64,000 nt of DNA from Ensifer adhaerens. GTDB taxonomy: Bacteria; Pseudomonadota; Alphaproteobacteria; Rhizobiales; Rhizobiaceae. Shown here one piece after another: positions 27,959-48,880 of this stretch (within the stretch, counting starts at the first letter, position 1; each line of letters begins with the position of its first letter). A program made the translations under genes and the position numbers. The stretch lies in assembly GCF_000697965.2 (NCBI RefSeq), contig NZ_CP015880.1:1612001-1676000 (forward strand), given 5' to 3'. The notes below the pieces were generated by a model that was given only the letters and a program-made list of their open reading frames with translations, did no database searches and was not told where the DNA came from.

Positions 27959-28234
27959 ATAGCAAAGCCGGAACCCAGAAGAAGAGCCTGACTATAGTCA
28001 CGGCTCGGGCCATTTCAGCGGCAATACCCACAGTATTTTATTGGTGAAATATAACGATGGCTGCCGGCCGGCGACTCATCTATATTCAAACCAATGAGAG
28101 AGGGGCCGGGACAAAGACTAGCCCCACAAATTGAATAGGTTATGCGCGACGCGATTGCGGCGCGAAAAGCTTAGATGTTGCCTTTACTTTGAATTGCGCA
28201 ACGTTGTTCACTTGAAAAGAAAAAGAAGAAATCG
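27959..28234. other. intergenic region upstream of the small RNA candidate
   Basis: No convincing gene lies here. The region is AT-richer than the surroundings around 28030-28060 and should hold the promoter of the small RNA candidate that ends at 28356. I could not fix a -35/-10 pair. Confidence 0.35.
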
Positions 28235-28356
28235 AACAGCGGAGCCGGAACGGGTTCTCCTGGCGTGTCTTGGTGCAGCAGATGTTCCCTCCCTCATCTG
28301 TATGCGATGCGCCCTCCTCGCCTCGCTTGTCCAACGACCGGCGAGGCGCTTTTTTT
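28235..28356 (+). ncRNA. putative trans-acting small RNA with C/U-rich loops
   Basis: A strong intrinsic terminator (arms CGCCTCGC 28319-28326 and GCGAGGCG 28341-28348, then C and seven T) stands 360 bp after the nearest upstream gene. Just before it is a perfect 6-bp hairpin (CAGATG 28279-28284, CATCTG 28295-28300) whose loop is TTCCCTCCCT, then an unpaired GCCCTCCTCG, and further 5' a GGAG/CTCC hairpin (28241-28260). C/U-rich loops complementary to Shine-Dalgarno sequences are the hallmark of rhizobial antisense-type sRNAs such as the alpha-r14 (NfeR1) group. The 5' end is estimated. Exact family not determined. Confidence 0.65.
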
Positions 28357-44055: not shown

Positions 44056-45921
44056 CTACTCCGCCGCCTCTTCCCGGGCGAGAAATCCGCCGGACTGGCG
44101 TGACCAGAGCCCGGCGTAAAGCCCGCCGCGGGCGACAAGTTCGGCGTGCGTTCCCTGTTCGACGATCCGCCCCTTGTCCATCACCACCAGCCGGTCGAGC
44201 GCGGCGATCGTCGACAGCCGATGCGCGATCGCGAGCACCGTCTTGCCCTGCATCAGGCGGTCGAGATTGGACTGGATCGCCGCTTCGACTTCGGAATCGA
44301 GCGCCGAGGTCGCCTCGTCGAGCACGAGGATCGGCGCATCCTTCAGCATCACCCGGGCGATCGCGATGCGCTGCCGCTGTCCGCCCGAAAGCTTGACGCC
44401 GCGCTCGCCCACATGGGCGTCGAGCCCCTTGTGGCCGCGCTGGTCCTGAAGGTCGGCGATGAAGTCGTAGGCTTCGGCTTTCCGCGCCGCAGCGATCAGT
44501 TGCTCCTCGTTCGCGTCGGGACGGCCGAAGAGGATGTTGTCGCGGATCGAGCGATGCAGAAGTGAAGTATCCTGGCTGACCATGCCGACCTGGGCGCGCA
44601 GCGACTCTTGCCTGACGGACGCGATATCCTGGCCGTCGATCAGGATGCGCCCGCTTTCAAGATCGTAGAAGCGCAGCAGCAGGTTGACGAGCGTCGACTT
44701 GCCGGCGCCCGAGCGACCGACGATGCCCACCTTCTCGCCCGGGCGCACCACGAGCGAGAAATCGTCGATGACGCGGTCGCCCTTGCCGTAGTGGAAGCGG
44801 ACGTGCTCGAAGCGGATTTCCGGCTTGCTCACGGCCAGTTCCGTCGCGTCGGGCCGATCGACGAGACCGATCGGCTGAGAGACCAGTTCGGCCGAGTTCT
44901 GGATCGTGCCGATGTTGCGCATGATCGAGTTGAACTGCGTCATCATGCGGCCAAGCAGCATGTTGAGCCGGAGCACCAGTGCCAGCGTGAAGGCGACCGC
45001 GCCGGAACTGATCGAGCCTGCGAGCCAGAGATGGATGGCGTAGACCGCGATCGCCGTGATCATCAGGCCGGAAAGCAGTGCCAGCGAGGCGCGCACGGCC
45101 GTCAAGAGCCGCGTGAACGGGATGACCGCGCGCTGGAACCGGTCGAAGCCGCCGCGGATATAGCGGTCGTTCTCCTCGTCGCGCCCGAAGAGCTTCAATG
45201 TCTGGATGTTGGAATAGGCATCGACCATGCGGCCGTTCAGCATCGACGCCATTTCGGCGGTATCGCGGGCGTGCTTGCGGATGCGTGGAACGAAAAAGCG
45301 CGCCAGCACCAGGAAGACGACGATCCAGAAGCCGACCATCGCGGCCAGACGCCAGTCGAGCTGCGCCACCAGCGCCATGGTGGACGCCGTGTAGATGACG
45401 ATGAACCAGACGACCTGCAGCAGCGAGACGAGCAGGTCGCTCGTTGCTTGAGCGCCGGCCCAGACCTTGGTGACGATGCGGCCGGAAAAGTCGTTCTGAA
45501 AGAAGGTCAGCGACTGCCTGGCGACGTGCACGTAGGATTGCCAACGCACCAGGTTCAAAAAGCCTGTCGTGATCGCCTGTTCTTCGACGAGCGCCGCCAA
45601 CGACACCGCGATGAAACGGAAGACCATGACTGTCAGGAGCATGAACAGAAGCTCCGGGCCATTGGCGGCGATCAACCCGCTCCAGCCAGCTTCCGGCTTC
45701 ACGGTGTCGAGCAGATCGACGAGCCGCCCGACGAAGTAGAATAGACCCGCCTCCAGCATGGCGACGAGGCCGCCCAAGACGGCCATAGCGATGAACGGTC
45801 CCTTGGCCTGTCTGGCGTAGAACCAGGCAAACCCCCAGAGCGATTTCGGCGGCTGCAGGCGCTCGCGCGGTGCGAAGGGCTTGATCCAGTTCTCGAAGAG
45901 GCTGACGATGGCGCTGAGCAT
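44056..45921 (-). CDS. ABC exporter half-transporter (fused permease and ATPase)
   Basis: The 621-residue protein has an N-terminal six-helix ABC exporter membrane domain (about residues 40-350) and a C-terminal ATPase domain with Walker A GRSGAGKST (near 400), signature LSGGQRQRIAIARV, Walker B ILVLDEATSALD and the H-loop AHRLSTI. It is a close paralogue of the next gene upstream, and the two likely form a heterodimer. Family members export lipids, peptides or drugs; the substrate is unknown. A hairpin lies between the two genes. Confidence 0.92.
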   Translation of the reverse strand: MLSAIVSLFENWIKPFAPRERLQPPKSLWGFAWFYARQAKGPFIAMAVLGGLVAMLEAGLFYFVGRLVDLLDTVKPEAGWSGLIAANGPELLFMLLTVMVFRFIAVSLAALVEEQAITTGFLNLVRWQSYVHVARQSLTFFQNDFSGRIVTKVWAGAQATSDLLVSLLQVVWFIVIYTASTMALVAQLDWRLAAMVGFWIVVFLVLARFFVPRIRKHARDTAEMASMLNGRMVDAYSNIQTLKLFGRDEENDRYIRGGFDRFQRAVIPFTRLLTAVRASLALLSGLMITAIAVYAIHLWLAGSISSGAVAFTLALVLRLNMLLGRMMTQFNSIMRNIGTIQNSAELVSQPIGLVDRPDATELAVSKPEIRFEHVRFHYGKGDRVIDDFSLVVRPGEKVGIVGRSGAGKSTLVNLLLRFYDLESGRILIDGQDIASVRQESLRAQVGMVSQDTSLLHRSIRDNILFGRPDANEEQLIAAARKAEAYDFIADLQDQRGHKGLDAHVGERGVKLSGGQRQRIAIARVMLKDAPILVLDEATSALDSEVEAAIQSNLDRLMQGKTVLAIAHRLSTIAALDRLVVMDKGRIVEQGTHAELVARGGLYAGLWSRQSGGFLAREEAAE

Positions 45922-46041: not shown

Positions 46042-47895
46042 TTACTCTGCGGCCTCTTCCTTCTCGACGTCGTCGGCGATGAAGCCGCCCGACTGGCGAG
46101 ACCAGAGGTCAGCGTAGAGACCGCCATGGGCAACGAGCTCGGCATGCGAGCCGGTCTCGACGATGCGGCCGGCCTCGAGGATCACCAGCCGGTCCATCTC
46201 CGTCAGCGTCGACAGGCGGTGGGCGATCGCGATCACCGTCTTGCCGGCCATCAGCGCGAACAGGTTCTCCTGGATCGCCTGTTCGACTTCGGAATCGAGC
46301 GCCGAGGTCGCCTCGTCGAGGATCAGGATCGGCGCGTCCTTCAAGAACACGCGCGCGATCGCGATACGCTGGCGCTGGCCGCCGGAGAGCTTGACGCCGC
46401 GTTCCCCGACCTGCGCGTCCAGGCCCTTGCGGCCCTGGTTATCCTCGAGCCCCTGGACGAAGTCCCAGGCGTTCGCCTTCTTGGCCGCCGCAATGATCGC
46501 CTCGTCGTCCGCTTCCGGATGGCCATAGGCGATGTTGTCGCGAATGGAGCGGTGCAAGAGCGAGGTGTCTTGCGTCACGACGCCGATCTGCGAGCGCAGG
46601 CTGTCCTGCGTGACGGTGGAGATATCCTTGCCGTCGATCCGGATCGCACCGTCCTCCAGGTCGTAGAAGCGCAACAGCAGGTTCATCAGCGTCGTCTTGC
46701 CCGCACCCGAGCGACCGACGAGGCCGATCTTCTCACCCGGCTTGATATCGAGCGACAGGTGATCGATGACACCCTTGGCCTTGCCGTAGTGGAAGCGGAT
46801 GTTGTCGAAGGCAATCGCCCCCTTGTCCGCTGTCAGCGTCTTGGCGTCCGGCTCGTCGACGATGTCGTGCGCCTTGGTCATCATGCCGATGCCGTCATAG
46901 ACCGTGCCGATATTCTCGAACAGCGCCGAGACTTCCCACATGATCCACTGCGACATGCCGTTGATGCGCATCGCAAGGCCGACGGCGATCGCGATCGCGC
47001 CGACGGAGATCGCACTCGTCAGCCACAGATGGATGCCAAGCGCTGCGATCGCAAAGAGCGCGATACTGTTGTTGGCATAGACCAGCACGTGGAACAGCGT
47101 CACCTTGCGCATCTGGCGATGCACGGTGTCGAGGAAGCCGTCCATGCCGTCGCGCGCATAGCCTTCCTCGCGGCCGGCATGCGAGAACAGCTTGACCGTA
47201 CCGATATTGGTGTAGCTGTCGACGATCCGGCCGGTCATCATCGAGCGCGCGTCCGCCTGCTCCTTGGAGATCTTCTGCAGCCGCGGCACAAAATAGCTGA
47301 CGATGCAGATGTAGATCGCCAGCCAGATGCCGAGCGGGATCACCAGCCGCCAGTCGGCGGTGGCGACGACGGCGAGCATCGTGACGAAGTAGCTGACGAC
47401 ATAGACGAAGACGTCGAGGATCTTCATCACGGTTTCGCGCACGGCTAGTGACGTCTGCATGACTTTCGTTGCCACGCGTCCGGCGAACTCGTTGGCAAAG
47501 AAGGTCATGCTCTGGCGCAGCAGGTAGCGGTGCATCTGCCAGCGGGCGATCATCGGATAGTTGCCGAGCAGCACCTGATGCATGATCAGCGAATCGATCG
47601 CCACGAGGCCCGGCAGGCCGATGAGGACGAGCGCACCCATCCAGAACAGCCGTCCGCTTTCGGCGGCGAGGAAGCTCTCGCGGTCGGCGCTCGACAGCCA
47701 GTCCACCATGTTGCCGAGGAACTGGAACAGCGCCACTTCGCCAATGGCGATCAGCGCCGTACAGACGGACATGATGATGAGCCACGGCGCAGCCGGCTTG
47801 GAGTAGTGCCAGCAGAAGCCGAACAGAGTCTTCGGCGGAACCGTCGGCTCCTCCGGCGGATAGGGATTGAGGCGGGATTCAAACCAGCCAAACAT
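46042..47895 (-). CDS. ABC exporter half-transporter (fused permease and ATPase), leader-controlled
   Basis: The 617-residue protein has the same layout as its downstream paralogue: six-helix exporter domain (about residues 35-340), then Walker A GRSGAGKTT, LSGGQRQRIAIARV, ILILDEATSALD and AHRLSTL. Stretches such as QDTSLLHRSIRDNI are shared by both. The ATG at 47895 follows a strong AAGGAG site that lies within a short hairpin. Upstream is a leader with a small ORF and alternative hairpins, so this is the first gene of the pair and its expression is probably conditional. Substrate unknown. Confidence 0.92.
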   Translation of the reverse strand: MFGWFESRLNPYPPEEPTVPPKTLFGFCWHYSKPAAPWLIIMSVCTALIAIGEVALFQFLGNMVDWLSSADRESFLAAESGRLFWMGALVLIGLPGLVAIDSLIMHQVLLGNYPMIARWQMHRYLLRQSMTFFANEFAGRVATKVMQTSLAVRETVMKILDVFVYVVSYFVTMLAVVATADWRLVIPLGIWLAIYICIVSYFVPRLQKISKEQADARSMMTGRIVDSYTNIGTVKLFSHAGREEGYARDGMDGFLDTVHRQMRKVTLFHVLVYANNSIALFAIAALGIHLWLTSAISVGAIAIAVGLAMRINGMSQWIMWEVSALFENIGTVYDGIGMMTKAHDIVDEPDAKTLTADKGAIAFDNIRFHYGKAKGVIDHLSLDIKPGEKIGLVGRSGAGKTTLMNLLLRFYDLEDGAIRIDGKDISTVTQDSLRSQIGVVTQDTSLLHRSIRDNIAYGHPEADDEAIIAAAKKANAWDFVQGLEDNQGRKGLDAQVGERGVKLSGGQRQRIAIARVFLKDAPILILDEATSALDSEVEQAIQENLFALMAGKTVIAIAHRLSTLTEMDRLVILEAGRIVETGSHAELVAHGGLYADLWSRQSGGFIADDVEKEEAAE

Positions 47896-47956
47896 AACAT
47901 TGCTCCTTCAGAGTATTTTGAAGGAAAGCGGGATTTCGCCCCGCATTCTTATGATG
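47896..47956 (-). promoter_or_regulatory. hairpins over the ribosome site of the first ABC exporter gene
   Basis: Read on the minus strand, CCTTCA and TGAAGG (47919-47924 and 47905-47910) pair over an 8-nt loop and bury most of the AAGGAG ribosome site. A second small hairpin GCGGG/CCCGC spans 47928-47944. Confidence 0.55.
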
Positions 47957-48014
47957 AAAAAGTCAGTCCGGAAATGCAGCCCGCAAAGGGCTTCGTCTTC
48001 CGGAGTCCCGGAAG
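47957..48014 (-). promoter_or_regulatory. candidate attenuator: mutually exclusive hairpins and T tract
   Basis: Three arms occur in order on the minus strand: CTTCCGG (48008-48014), CCGGAAG (47997-48003) and TTTCCGGA (47967-47974). Arm 1 pairs with arm 2 (7 bp), or arm 2 with arm 3 (TCCGGAA/TTCCGGA, 7 bp, with an inner AGCCC/GGGCT stem). Arm 3 is followed after 5 nt by five T residues, so the 2:3 form is terminator-like and the 1:2 form would be its antiterminator. Confidence 0.6.
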
Positions 48015-48052
48015 CGCGTCGATCTCGGTTAAAAGATAGGTCGCGGAACCGG

Positions 48053-48109
48053 TCAGGCCAAACGGTGGCCCACTACTCCAGGAAGGCGTGTCAACATCAA
48101 TACATTCAT
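48053..48109 (-). CDS. putative 18-residue leader peptide of the ABC exporter operon
   Basis: An ATG with a perfect GGAGG ribosome site 5 nt upstream opens an 18-codon frame (MNVLMLTRLPGVVGHRLA) and ends in TGA 38 nt before the first attenuator arm. The position and the strong ribosome site suggest a regulatory leader peptide whose translation sets the RNA fold downstream. No run of a single amino-acid codon is seen, so arrest by a drug or by tRNA shortage cannot be told apart. Confidence 0.5.
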   Translation of the reverse strand: MNVLMLTRLPGVVGHRLA

Positions 48110-48307
48110 GTTTGCCTCCGTCGGTTCGCGTTGAAGAGGTCCGATCTCTACCCTTATTCGCGCTCGCATGCCAGATTGTCGCAGGCACTTTCTTGCCCAA
48201 TTTTTCATCGCTCCGACCGCTGTTGCCGTTTCGGCACAGATTAGCGCAGGCAATATGAGCGACCTCAAAAGCAAGCAGCGCCGGACGTTTCGCGGCGGAG
48301 AACAAGG

Positions 48308-48880
48308 ATGATCGCTTCATCGGACACGCCTCCTGACCTTCAAAGTGTCGGCTTTCTCCTGCGGCGCCCCCGCGAGGGTGACGCAGACGTGCGCCTGAGG
48401 CTCGGCCGCCATCCGGATATCTACCGGATGTTCGGTGCGGGCAGGTCGTTTCCCGGCCTCTTCGGCCACGGTGAAGCGGACGCCTGGGTAACGCGCATCG
48501 CCGAACATCCGGCCGCCTGGATCATCGATCAGGACGGCCTCGTCGGCGAAGTGCGGCTCGACAACATCAACCGCGCCGATCGCCGCGCGAACTTCGCCAT
48601 CGGCATTTTCGATCCGGATCGCCTTGGCAAGGGTCTTGGCACGGCGGTCATCAAGCGGGTATTGGCCTATGCCTTCGACGAACTTGCCCTTCATCGGGTC
48701 TCGCTGAGGGTCCTCGCCTTCAACGAGCGGGCGATTGCGGCCTATCTCAAGTCCGGTTTCTCGATCGAGGGCCGCGAACGCGAATCGGCGCTGATCGACG
48801 GTGAGTGGCACGACGACATCATGATGGGCATCCTGGCTGCGGATTTCGATACGCGGCGCAACGCCCCCGGAAACGAGTAA
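48308..48880 (+). CDS. GNAT-family N-acetyltransferase (RimJ/RimL type)
   Basis: The 190-residue protein has the GNAT fold: an N-terminal strand VGFLLRRPREGD, an acetyl-CoA binding loop DPDRLGKGLGTAVIKRV (near 105-121), and the C-terminal FNERAIAAYLKSGFSIEGRERE typical of RimJ/RimL-like enzymes. The acceptor is unknown: ribosomal protein, drug or metabolite. The ATG at 48308 follows AAGG. It lies 6 bp before trmL and is divergent from the ABC leader. Confidence 0.88.
   Translation: MIASSDTPPDLQSVGFLLRRPREGDADVRLRLGRHPDIYRMFGAGRSFPGLFGHGEADAWVTRIAEHPAAWIIDQDGLVGEVRLDNINRADRRANFAIGIFDPDRLGKGLGTAVIKRVLAYAFDELALHRVSLRVLAFNERAIAAYLKSGFSIEGRERESALIDGEWHDDIMMGILAADFDTRRNAPGNE

Follow-up and report, generated by a model that had tools for sequence, protein, structure and literature searches.

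The window analysed here, 64,000 nucleotides of the Ensifer adhaerens genome (contig NZ_CP015880.1, positions 1,612,001 to 1,676,000), carries on its minus strand two adjacent genes encoding ABC half-exporters, with a leader of about 240 nt ahead of the pair. The first gene (46042..47895, with its ATG at 47895 as read from the sequence) encodes a half-transporter of 617 amino acids with PF00664 and PF00005 domains, for which the 25 top-ranking NCBIfam models listed all fell short of their cut-offs, and the second (44056..45921) encodes a half-transporter of 621 amino acids recognised by domain and NCBIfam searches. Among the best 80 of 563 loci, the nearest named relatives of the exporter are those of Ensifer sp. 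LC11 (97%) and Ensifer sesbaniae (95%), and a wider draw of family genomes yielded the exporter in 97 of 101. The pair is flanked by trmL and petA in S. meliloti Ak57; the window has an additional GNAT acetyltransferase gene (48308-48880, plus strand) between trmL and the leader, a place where that strain has none. Upstream of the promoter region of the leader lies an inverted repeat, CTGTGCCG-AAAC-GGCAACAG (48220-48239), which is preserved, by eye, in Ensifer, Sinorhizobium and Pararhizobium and is a possible operator for some regulator. A match to the Rhizobiales small RNA Atu_C7 (RF02501) was also seen at 28202-28352 on the plus strand (53.7 bits).

The leader is read from the minus strand. 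A candidate -10 region, GGGTAGAGA (48145..48153), was picked out by eye, as was a TA-rich, -10-like block at the corresponding place in relatives; an E. coli-type sigma-70 scan of the leader region returned no promoter, and the candidate is therefore graded weak. Strand A, CGCGAACCG (48122..48130), is the 5' arm of a helix, P1, that seals a short upstream open reading frame (uORF), and it is followed by the Shine-Dalgarno sequence of that frame, GGAGGC (48114..48119), which forms the 5' arm of a second helix, P2. The uORF itself, MNVLMLTRLPGVVGHRLA, consists of 18 codons and a TGA (48053..48109); read directly, its ATG begins at 48109, its stop occupies 48055-48053 and GGAGG lies at 48119-48115, so that the 18-codon frame with a perfect GGAGG named in the preliminary description is present where it had been placed. 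Codons 8-10, GCCTTC(C) (48082..48087), are conserved as a nucleotide motif and provide both the 3' arm of P2, an anti-Shine-Dalgarno sequence, and a C-rich element. In several groups RNAalifold predicts that the 3' half of the frame folds into a hairpin, at a place that shifts between groups; in the window it is P3, a GGCC hairpin at 48056..48070. Strand B, CGGTTCCGCG (48042..48051), directly follows the stop codon and is the 3' arm of P1. Farther downstream are three arms, recognised from the sequence and from counts of pairing in aligned rows (arm 1, CTTCCGG, 48014-48008; arm 2, CCGGAAG, 48003-47997, common to both pairings; arm 3, TTTCCGG, 47974-47968), a TTTTT run (47961-47957), a GC hairpin, GCGGG/CCCGC, followed by TTTCCTTC (47928..47944), and a hairpin, CCTTCA/TGAAGG (47924-47919/47910-47905), that overlaps the exporter ribosome site, AAGGAG (47908-47903). 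The folding of the leader is by itself modestly unusual (z -1.91; 6 of 200 shuffles as good). No Rfam covariance model reached its gathering threshold within the leader, and the six matches found in 47700-48500 at E<=10 were all under cut-off and none was relevant.

Leader DNA was found in 16 of 16 genomes of the genus and in one further genome of the family, and these, with the best 80 of 563 named orthologous loci, make up the 97 leaders (92 distinct) compared here. All 97 contain an ATG frame of 16-23 codons, 18 codons long in 59 of them, whose stop lies 130-260 nt upstream of the exporter; the frame is preceded in 97 of 97 loci by a strong Shine-Dalgarno sequence, presumably near the 5' end of the transcript. 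A frame finder that demands a strong Shine-Dalgarno sequence succeeded in 34 of 34 representatives, as against 0.8% of dinucleotide shuffles, and in none of 272 stretches inside the exporter gene. The wider draw gave 93 upstream regions, scanned to about 600 nt (less at contig ends) or, for 40 distant ones, to 1250 nt. By eye, the frame is clear in 20 of the 27 closer regions (L115-L141), possible in two and absent in five. Among 66 more distant regions, 28 have an equal arrangement (one of them twice), 292-1170 nt upstream, and a covariance model described below also matches L142, L168, L170 and L178; no alignable uORF leader was detected in the other distant family members scanned. The preliminary description had proposed conservation of the short frame in relatives as a check; the frame is kept in every one of the leaders examined, and on this comparison of sequences the leader frame is real and old.

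Several loci depart from the common arrangement. In L175 / L236 the leader occurs in two tandem copies, 1170 and 582 nt ahead of the exporter, with a separate small frame after each copy, and in L164 and L166 the uORF reads through its usual stop into strand B, making these two natural exceptions. Small-protein frames between leader and exporter were noticed by eye in several of 15 distant leaders; such small genes precede the exporter in L176, L166, L155, L173 and L169, some with an RPHRGxLPD-like motif, and searches with three of these proteins from distant genera gave no Pfam match and one insignificant NCBIfam match. Seven plasmid copies among the 20 listed were inspected. A plasmid copy in R. 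rhizogenes (L268) has kept the uORF leader with an earlier stop, and four relocated exporter paralogues on plasmids of the R. leguminosarum group (L269-L272) have neither an annotated trmL neighbour (0 of 4) nor a uORF (0 of 4).

Consensus folding, carried out group by group, pairs strand A, just 5' of the Shine-Dalgarno sequence, with strand B, which lies at the stop or immediately behind it. It also pairs the Shine-Dalgarno sequence with codons 8-10 (GGAGGC:GCCUUC), which in an 18-codon frame lie mid-frame, outside the first third; this second pairing emerges from the swap tests as well. In these tests the duplex energy of a leader's own partners was compared with that of partners swapped between species over 2000 permutations, a procedure that preserves composition but not phylogeny, using samples from the 97 loci of 77 and 76 distinct or 34 representative leaders. 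Duplex energies computed over long flanks were discarded as a pairing test (own -16.8, cross -15.3, shuffled -16.5), and because they failed to discriminate, short windows with swapped partners were adopted. For A:B in the 34 representative loci, own partners averaged -9.83 kcal/mol and swapped partners -7.87, with 0 of 2000 permutations as good; windows neighbouring the uORF stop gave 0/2000 and 14/2000, and strand A against 15 windows starting past the stop gave z values from -1.55 to +1.54. The 77 distinct loci again gave 0/2000 for A:B. Swaps of the P2 partners were as good in 1/2000 permutations for 76 loci, 49/2000 for 25 distant loci and, at best, 11/2000 for the 34 representatives, in which a further Shine-Dalgarno window (offset 51) reached 49/2000. 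Within 29 rows from Ensifer, Sinorhizobium and Pararhizobium, P1 is paired in 98.9% of cells and is nearly invariant, and it is therefore silent on covariation in the window's own clade. As judged from these sequence comparisons, the conserved core of the leader is the seal around the frame, upstream of arms 1-3, rather than those arms.

The same seal recurs in distant genera, where it is part of a longer chain of helices. From 34 distant leader candidates (33 genomes), an alignment, A1, was built without L142, L170, L178, L184 and L188; the 28-leader swap run also leaves out L180, and the 27-leader run L164 and L166. In most of 28 distant genomes the stop codon adjoins strand B, which has two possible partners, A and a strand farther downstream, C; strand C can pair in addition with strand D, just ahead of the next gene. 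Swaps as good as the native pairing numbered 0, 2 and 2 of 2000 for A:B, B:C and C:D in the 28 leaders, as against 83, 1290 and 227 for the control pairs A:C, A:D and B:D, and with other windows in 27 leaders they numbered 0 for A:B, 5 for B:C and 980 for A:C. Counts by alignment column in the distant genera showed a modest excess of pairing for A:B2 (80.5% versus 77.7% in shuffles, 4/500) and no excess for B:C (89.2% versus 88.5%, 87/500).

A covariance model, R1, was made from the leaders of distant genera alone (29 sequences, none from Ensifer). Its top match in the 7.27-Mb genome is the leader in the window (47986-48133, 51 bits, E 1.4e-14). When R1 was run on the 97 closer loci, 42 leaders outscored its highest off-site match (17.3 bits); at E<=0.01 there were 46 leaders matched and 51 of the 97 loci without a leader match. 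Because R1 ranks the window leader first and matches closer leaders, the window and distant leaders are homologous. R1 also matches three of the leaders left out of A1 (L142 at 42.5, L178 at 25.4 and L170 at 22.6 bits), as well as L168 (102 bits), which the frame finder had missed. The second match in the genome (20.7 bits, E 2.3e-4) falls on the Shine-Dalgarno sequence and start of a gene for a substrate-binding protein and was judged to be due to chance. Over 150 genomes of the order, R1 returned four matches of 51-113 bits, all within the family and including the window's own genome, and five of 21.8-24.4 bits outside the family, which were taken as chance.

What is constrained within the frame appears to be RNA. 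Codons 8-10 are mostly CGC CTY CNN, and this motif is kept at the nucleotide level in 84 of the 97 frames (13 are unmatched), in the main phase in 73 of those 84. The encoded residues are R, S, C or G, then mostly L, then P, R, Q, L or H, which is largely what GCCUCC permits; RLP (40) and RLR (9) are the commonest triplets in the 84 matched frames. The 97 loci encode 77 distinct peptides, whose 3' half is unconserved, and no residue-level arrest motif of the erm type is conserved among the 97 frames. It looks, on these alignments, as though codon bases rather than residues are conserved. In 93 of 97 loci the 60 nt that follow the stop contain more C than G, whereas the opening 300 nt of the exporter gene do so in 59 of 97; in the window, the 45 nt after the uORF are 36% C and 24% G.

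The elements downstream of the seal are conserved over a narrower range. The preliminary description had proposed two mutually exclusive 7-bp hairpins with five T residues after the terminator form. Arms 1 and 2 do form seven Watson-Crick pairs and arm 2 is shared, but arms 2:3 form six pairs and one G-U; the TTTTT is present but starts 6 nt after arm 3. Because of that distance, arms 2:3 with the T run make a poor intrinsic terminator, and a canonical terminator, as originally envisaged, is not supported; among relatives, both the length of the T run and its distance vary. An alignment of 29 rows, A2, took in five of the seven Pararhizobium-group rows. In it, arms 1:2 are paired in 89.7% of cells versus 86.0% in shuffles (0/500), one position having changed on both sides in 7 sequences, and arms 2:3 in 96.6% versus 95.5% (16/500), with one position doubly changed in 3 sequences. 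By row, the 1:2 pairing is complete in 22 of 29, retains 5 of 6 pairs in L043, 4 of 6 in L018 and 3 of 6 in each of the five rows from Pararhizobium; the 2:3 pairing has 7 of 7 pairs in 22 rows and 6 of 7 in the other 7. Compensatory change, suggested earlier as a check on the arms, thus exists at one position in each pairing, but the pairing of arm 1 fails in Pararhizobium, and in other Rhizobiaceae groups arms 1-3 were unrecognised by eye in that part of the fold output inspected. The GC hairpin at 47928..47944 is the only terminator-like site on the minus strand in a scan of 47850-48350 and is conserved in 29 sequences; the scan found no intrinsic terminator within the frame (48109-48053).

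The hairpin burying the exporter AAGGAG, also named in the preliminary description, is present as described. In the 29 rows it is paired in 98.9% of cells and, being nearly invariant, offers no covariation. Accessibility was predicted with the RNA blocked by a ribosome at initiation, at codon 9 or at the stop. Across 27 leaders the predicted access of the exporter ribosome site showed no consistent change with ribosome position, and for this reason masking of the site, which had been put forward as a switch, is not taken as a general one. For the window and its close relatives, the ribosome site is predicted to become more accessible when a ribosome is initiating on the uORF (in the window from 0.18 to 0.32, and for the AUG from 0.26 to 0.57), and masking may play a part in Ensifer according to these predictions.

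A leader of the same anatomy was published in 2025. According to the part of that paper available (PMC12218461), S. meliloti duf1127_1 is under transcription attenuation by way of a 29-residue uORF whose translation is required for attenuation, and tetracycline and chloramphenicol induce the gene. Synonymous changes in the C-rich codons 3, 5, 9 and 10 de-repress it, the uORF ribosome site can pair with C-rich codons, and RNA rather than peptide matters; a single terminator candidate tested in the leader was not a terminator, and Rho was proposed as the agent, the mechanism having been dissected at this one locus (PMC12218461). From the published description we located the duf1127_1 leader in S. 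meliloti 4H41 (MNSNLVFVRLCGGTAIVPSMRRASGFSRY); AGGAGGCG precedes its start, and codons 9-10 contain CGCCUC, pairable with the Shine-Dalgarno sequence. The candidate fits the paper in length, residues 11 and 15, four C-rich codons and 249 nt from uORF start to gene start; residue 17 is V where the paper gives T, and the quoted 18-base motif has three mismatches, differences that are perhaps those of strain. The window's own genome has a duf1127_1 orthologue (G000:C1:1960747-1961142, L342) with a 31-codon uORF that shows both an A:B seal and Shine-Dalgarno:codon pairing.

Both leaders have a short uORF, near the 5' end in duf1127_1, where an AGGAGGC Shine-Dalgarno sequence pairs with CGCCUC at codons 9-10 (codons 8-10 in the exporter leader), and both have a C-rich, G-poor stretch after the stop, the second duf1127_1 element being 38% C and 18% G in 45 nt (PMC12218461). 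An A:B seal of 6-10 pairs is present in nine Ensifer duf1127_1 orthologues; the S. meliloti leader has a weak one, -6.5 kcal/mol at best, and swapping A:B partners among ten duf1127_1 leaders hardly changes the energy (own -13.3, swapped -12.7). The two differ in that duf1127_1 has a uORF of 29-31 codons ahead of a gene for a DUF1127 protein, whereas the exporter leader has 18 codons ahead of an ABC operon, and in that induction and termination are experimentally established for duf1127_1 (PMC12218461), whereas the exporter leader is known from sequence alone. Alignment and swap tests establish for the exporter leader the frame, the two helices and their conservation, homology with the distant leaders, and the anatomy that it shares with duf1127_1. 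R1 found no match at E<=0.01 in the duf1127_1 loci L292 and L296; since anatomy is shared and R1 fails across the two, we claim the same kind of mechanism and not common descent. A pattern of Shine-Dalgarno sequence, ATG and CGCCTY has 32 matches in the window's own genome, of which one belongs to the exporter leader and one to the duf1127-type leader.

The closest known exporter attenuator is that of B. subtilis BmrB-BmrCD, in which, in the account available (PMC4191407), a leader frame stands before genes for a two-subunit multidrug ABC exporter and the rate of its translation sets read-through; the two adjacent half-exporters of the window may form a comparable pair. Its intrinsic terminator lies inside the leader coding region (PMC4191407), where our scan found none in the exporter leader, and it differs further in that the uORF described here is sealed by flanking strands. 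The exporter leader also resembles E. coli tnaC in likewise having a uORF with a candidate Rho-type stretch after its stop. The tnaC residues are conserved for tryptophan-dependent stalling, whereas those of the exporter uORF vary. In the discussion of PMC12218461, tnaC is described as having a Rho site right after the uORF stop and as stalling at Pro24 when tryptophan is high. The same paper, in the part available, places S. meliloti SM2011_RS23660 among the top 30 tetracycline-induced genes and gives no mechanism there for its induction; the gene is the first large one in an operon for ABC-type multidrug transport, and sORF3 and sORF55 stand before it (PMC12218461); this operon may be the exporter locus studied here. 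In the accessible text of PMC10117765, sORF1-55 are named as Ribo-seq frames, and SEP3 is a candidate of under 30 amino acids that is absent from the listed novel proteins confirmed by Western blot. In S. meliloti 4H41 the start of the exporter-leader frame reads ATGCATGAC (L043, 2261 onward), and another ATG, 4 nt farther upstream, begins a frame of 55 codons that overlaps it and crosses the leader; judged by sequence, these overlapping frames might be the sORF pair of PMC12218461. Literature searches, supplements aside, found no published description of the exporter leader, in agreement with the earlier remark that no leader with this peptide had been described, although duf1127_1, with the same anatomy, has been (PMC12218461).

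The best reading of these data is a known kind of leader at a new place, before an ABC exporter operon. By analogy with duf1127_1, the exporter leader would be a translation-status sensor acting by transcription attenuation, a reading to which we assign a probability of roughly 0.6, and it would probably switch the pump on when protein synthesis falters. Translation of the uORF, premature termination, the involvement of Rho, the inducers and the output would all follow that precedent. In such a scheme strands A and B would seal the uORF, and within the seal the Shine-Dalgarno sequence would pair with C-rich codons 8-10. Normal ribosome loading and translation would successively expose the C-rich codons and, beyond the stop, the stretch rich in C and poor in G, and the exposed RNA would bring about an early stop of transcription, probably via Rho. 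If tetracycline-like drugs or a shortage of ribosomes hindered initiation or early elongation, the codons would remain under a stalled ribosome or within the Shine-Dalgarno:codon helix, and transcription would continue into the exporter genes. The layout of ribosome-mediated attenuation drawn from the sequence at the outset is supported in its conserved frame, its alternative pairing and the probability of attenuation; an arrest peptide, a ribosome-site switch and a canonical terminator are not supported.

Translation of the uORF might be sensed in just this way while the stop is made by an intrinsic terminator, either arms 2:3 with the T run or GCGGG/CCCGC with TTTCC, arms 1:2 acting as antiterminator. 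Such a terminator would agree with the retention of both arm pairings in Ensifer and Sinorhizobium, each with one doubly changed position, with the conservation of the GC hairpin, with the chain A:B, B:C and C:D that swap tests support in distant genera (0, 2 and 2 of 2000) and with the bmrB precedent (PMC4191407, as available), but we consider it unlikely: the T run is variable and stands 6 nt from the stem, the arm 1 pairing is lost in Pararhizobium and the arms go unrecognised in other groups, and the one duf1127_1 hairpin candidate put to experiment was not a terminator (PMC12218461, as available).

Two further readings give the peptide or the RNA another role. The full model of the preliminary description, a drug-specific, erm-type arrest of the nascent peptide that opens the exporter ribosome site, could draw on the prevalence of R-L-P/R at codons 8-10 and on the greater predicted access of the ribosome site and AUG in the window under an initiating ribosome. 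R-L-P/R triplets recall macrolide arrest motifs. The triplet is, against this, what GCCUCC encodes; S-L-Q, C-L-P, G-L-P, N-L-P and others also occur, codons 8-10 vary mostly as the RNA constraint allows, and the peptide shows no conservation in its 3' half; placing the ribosome at codon 9 or over the stop causes no consistent change in access in 27 leaders. We regard arrest of this type as improbable. Slightly less probable still is a peptide that is itself functional, or a leader that acts in trans as a small RNA, without attenuation in cis, even though S. meliloti trpL, in the account available, yields both a trans-acting peptide and a trans-acting RNA. The peptide is weakly conserved (77 distinct in 97 loci), the leader keeps its place ahead of the exporter, and the frame is enclosed by the A:B seal; moreover, all four relocated plasmid paralogues without an annotated trmL neighbour are without the uORF.

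Attenuation that senses the state of translation may reach beyond these two genes. It is conceivable, though we hold the idea only tentatively and at somewhat less than even odds, that a class of sealed uORFs is widespread in Rhizobiaceae, with flanking strands closing over a frame of 15-30 codons, a start tied to codons 8-10 and a covarying chain of helices, serving as a general translation-status switch before the exporter, duf1127_1 and the small genes that precede the exporter in distant genera. In the published dissection of duf1127_1, as available (PMC12218461), we found no test of the A:B seal or of helices such as B:C and C:D of distant genera. Antibiotic-sensing attenuators are little known in Gram-negative bacteria, and the duf1127_1 mechanism has so far, in the part of the source available, concerned a single gene of unknown function (PMC12218461). 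If our reading is true, that mechanism would be a conserved regulatory kind, and in many Rhizobiaceae, bacteria of soil and plants, a chromosomal ABC exporter would be coupled to the inhibition of translation.
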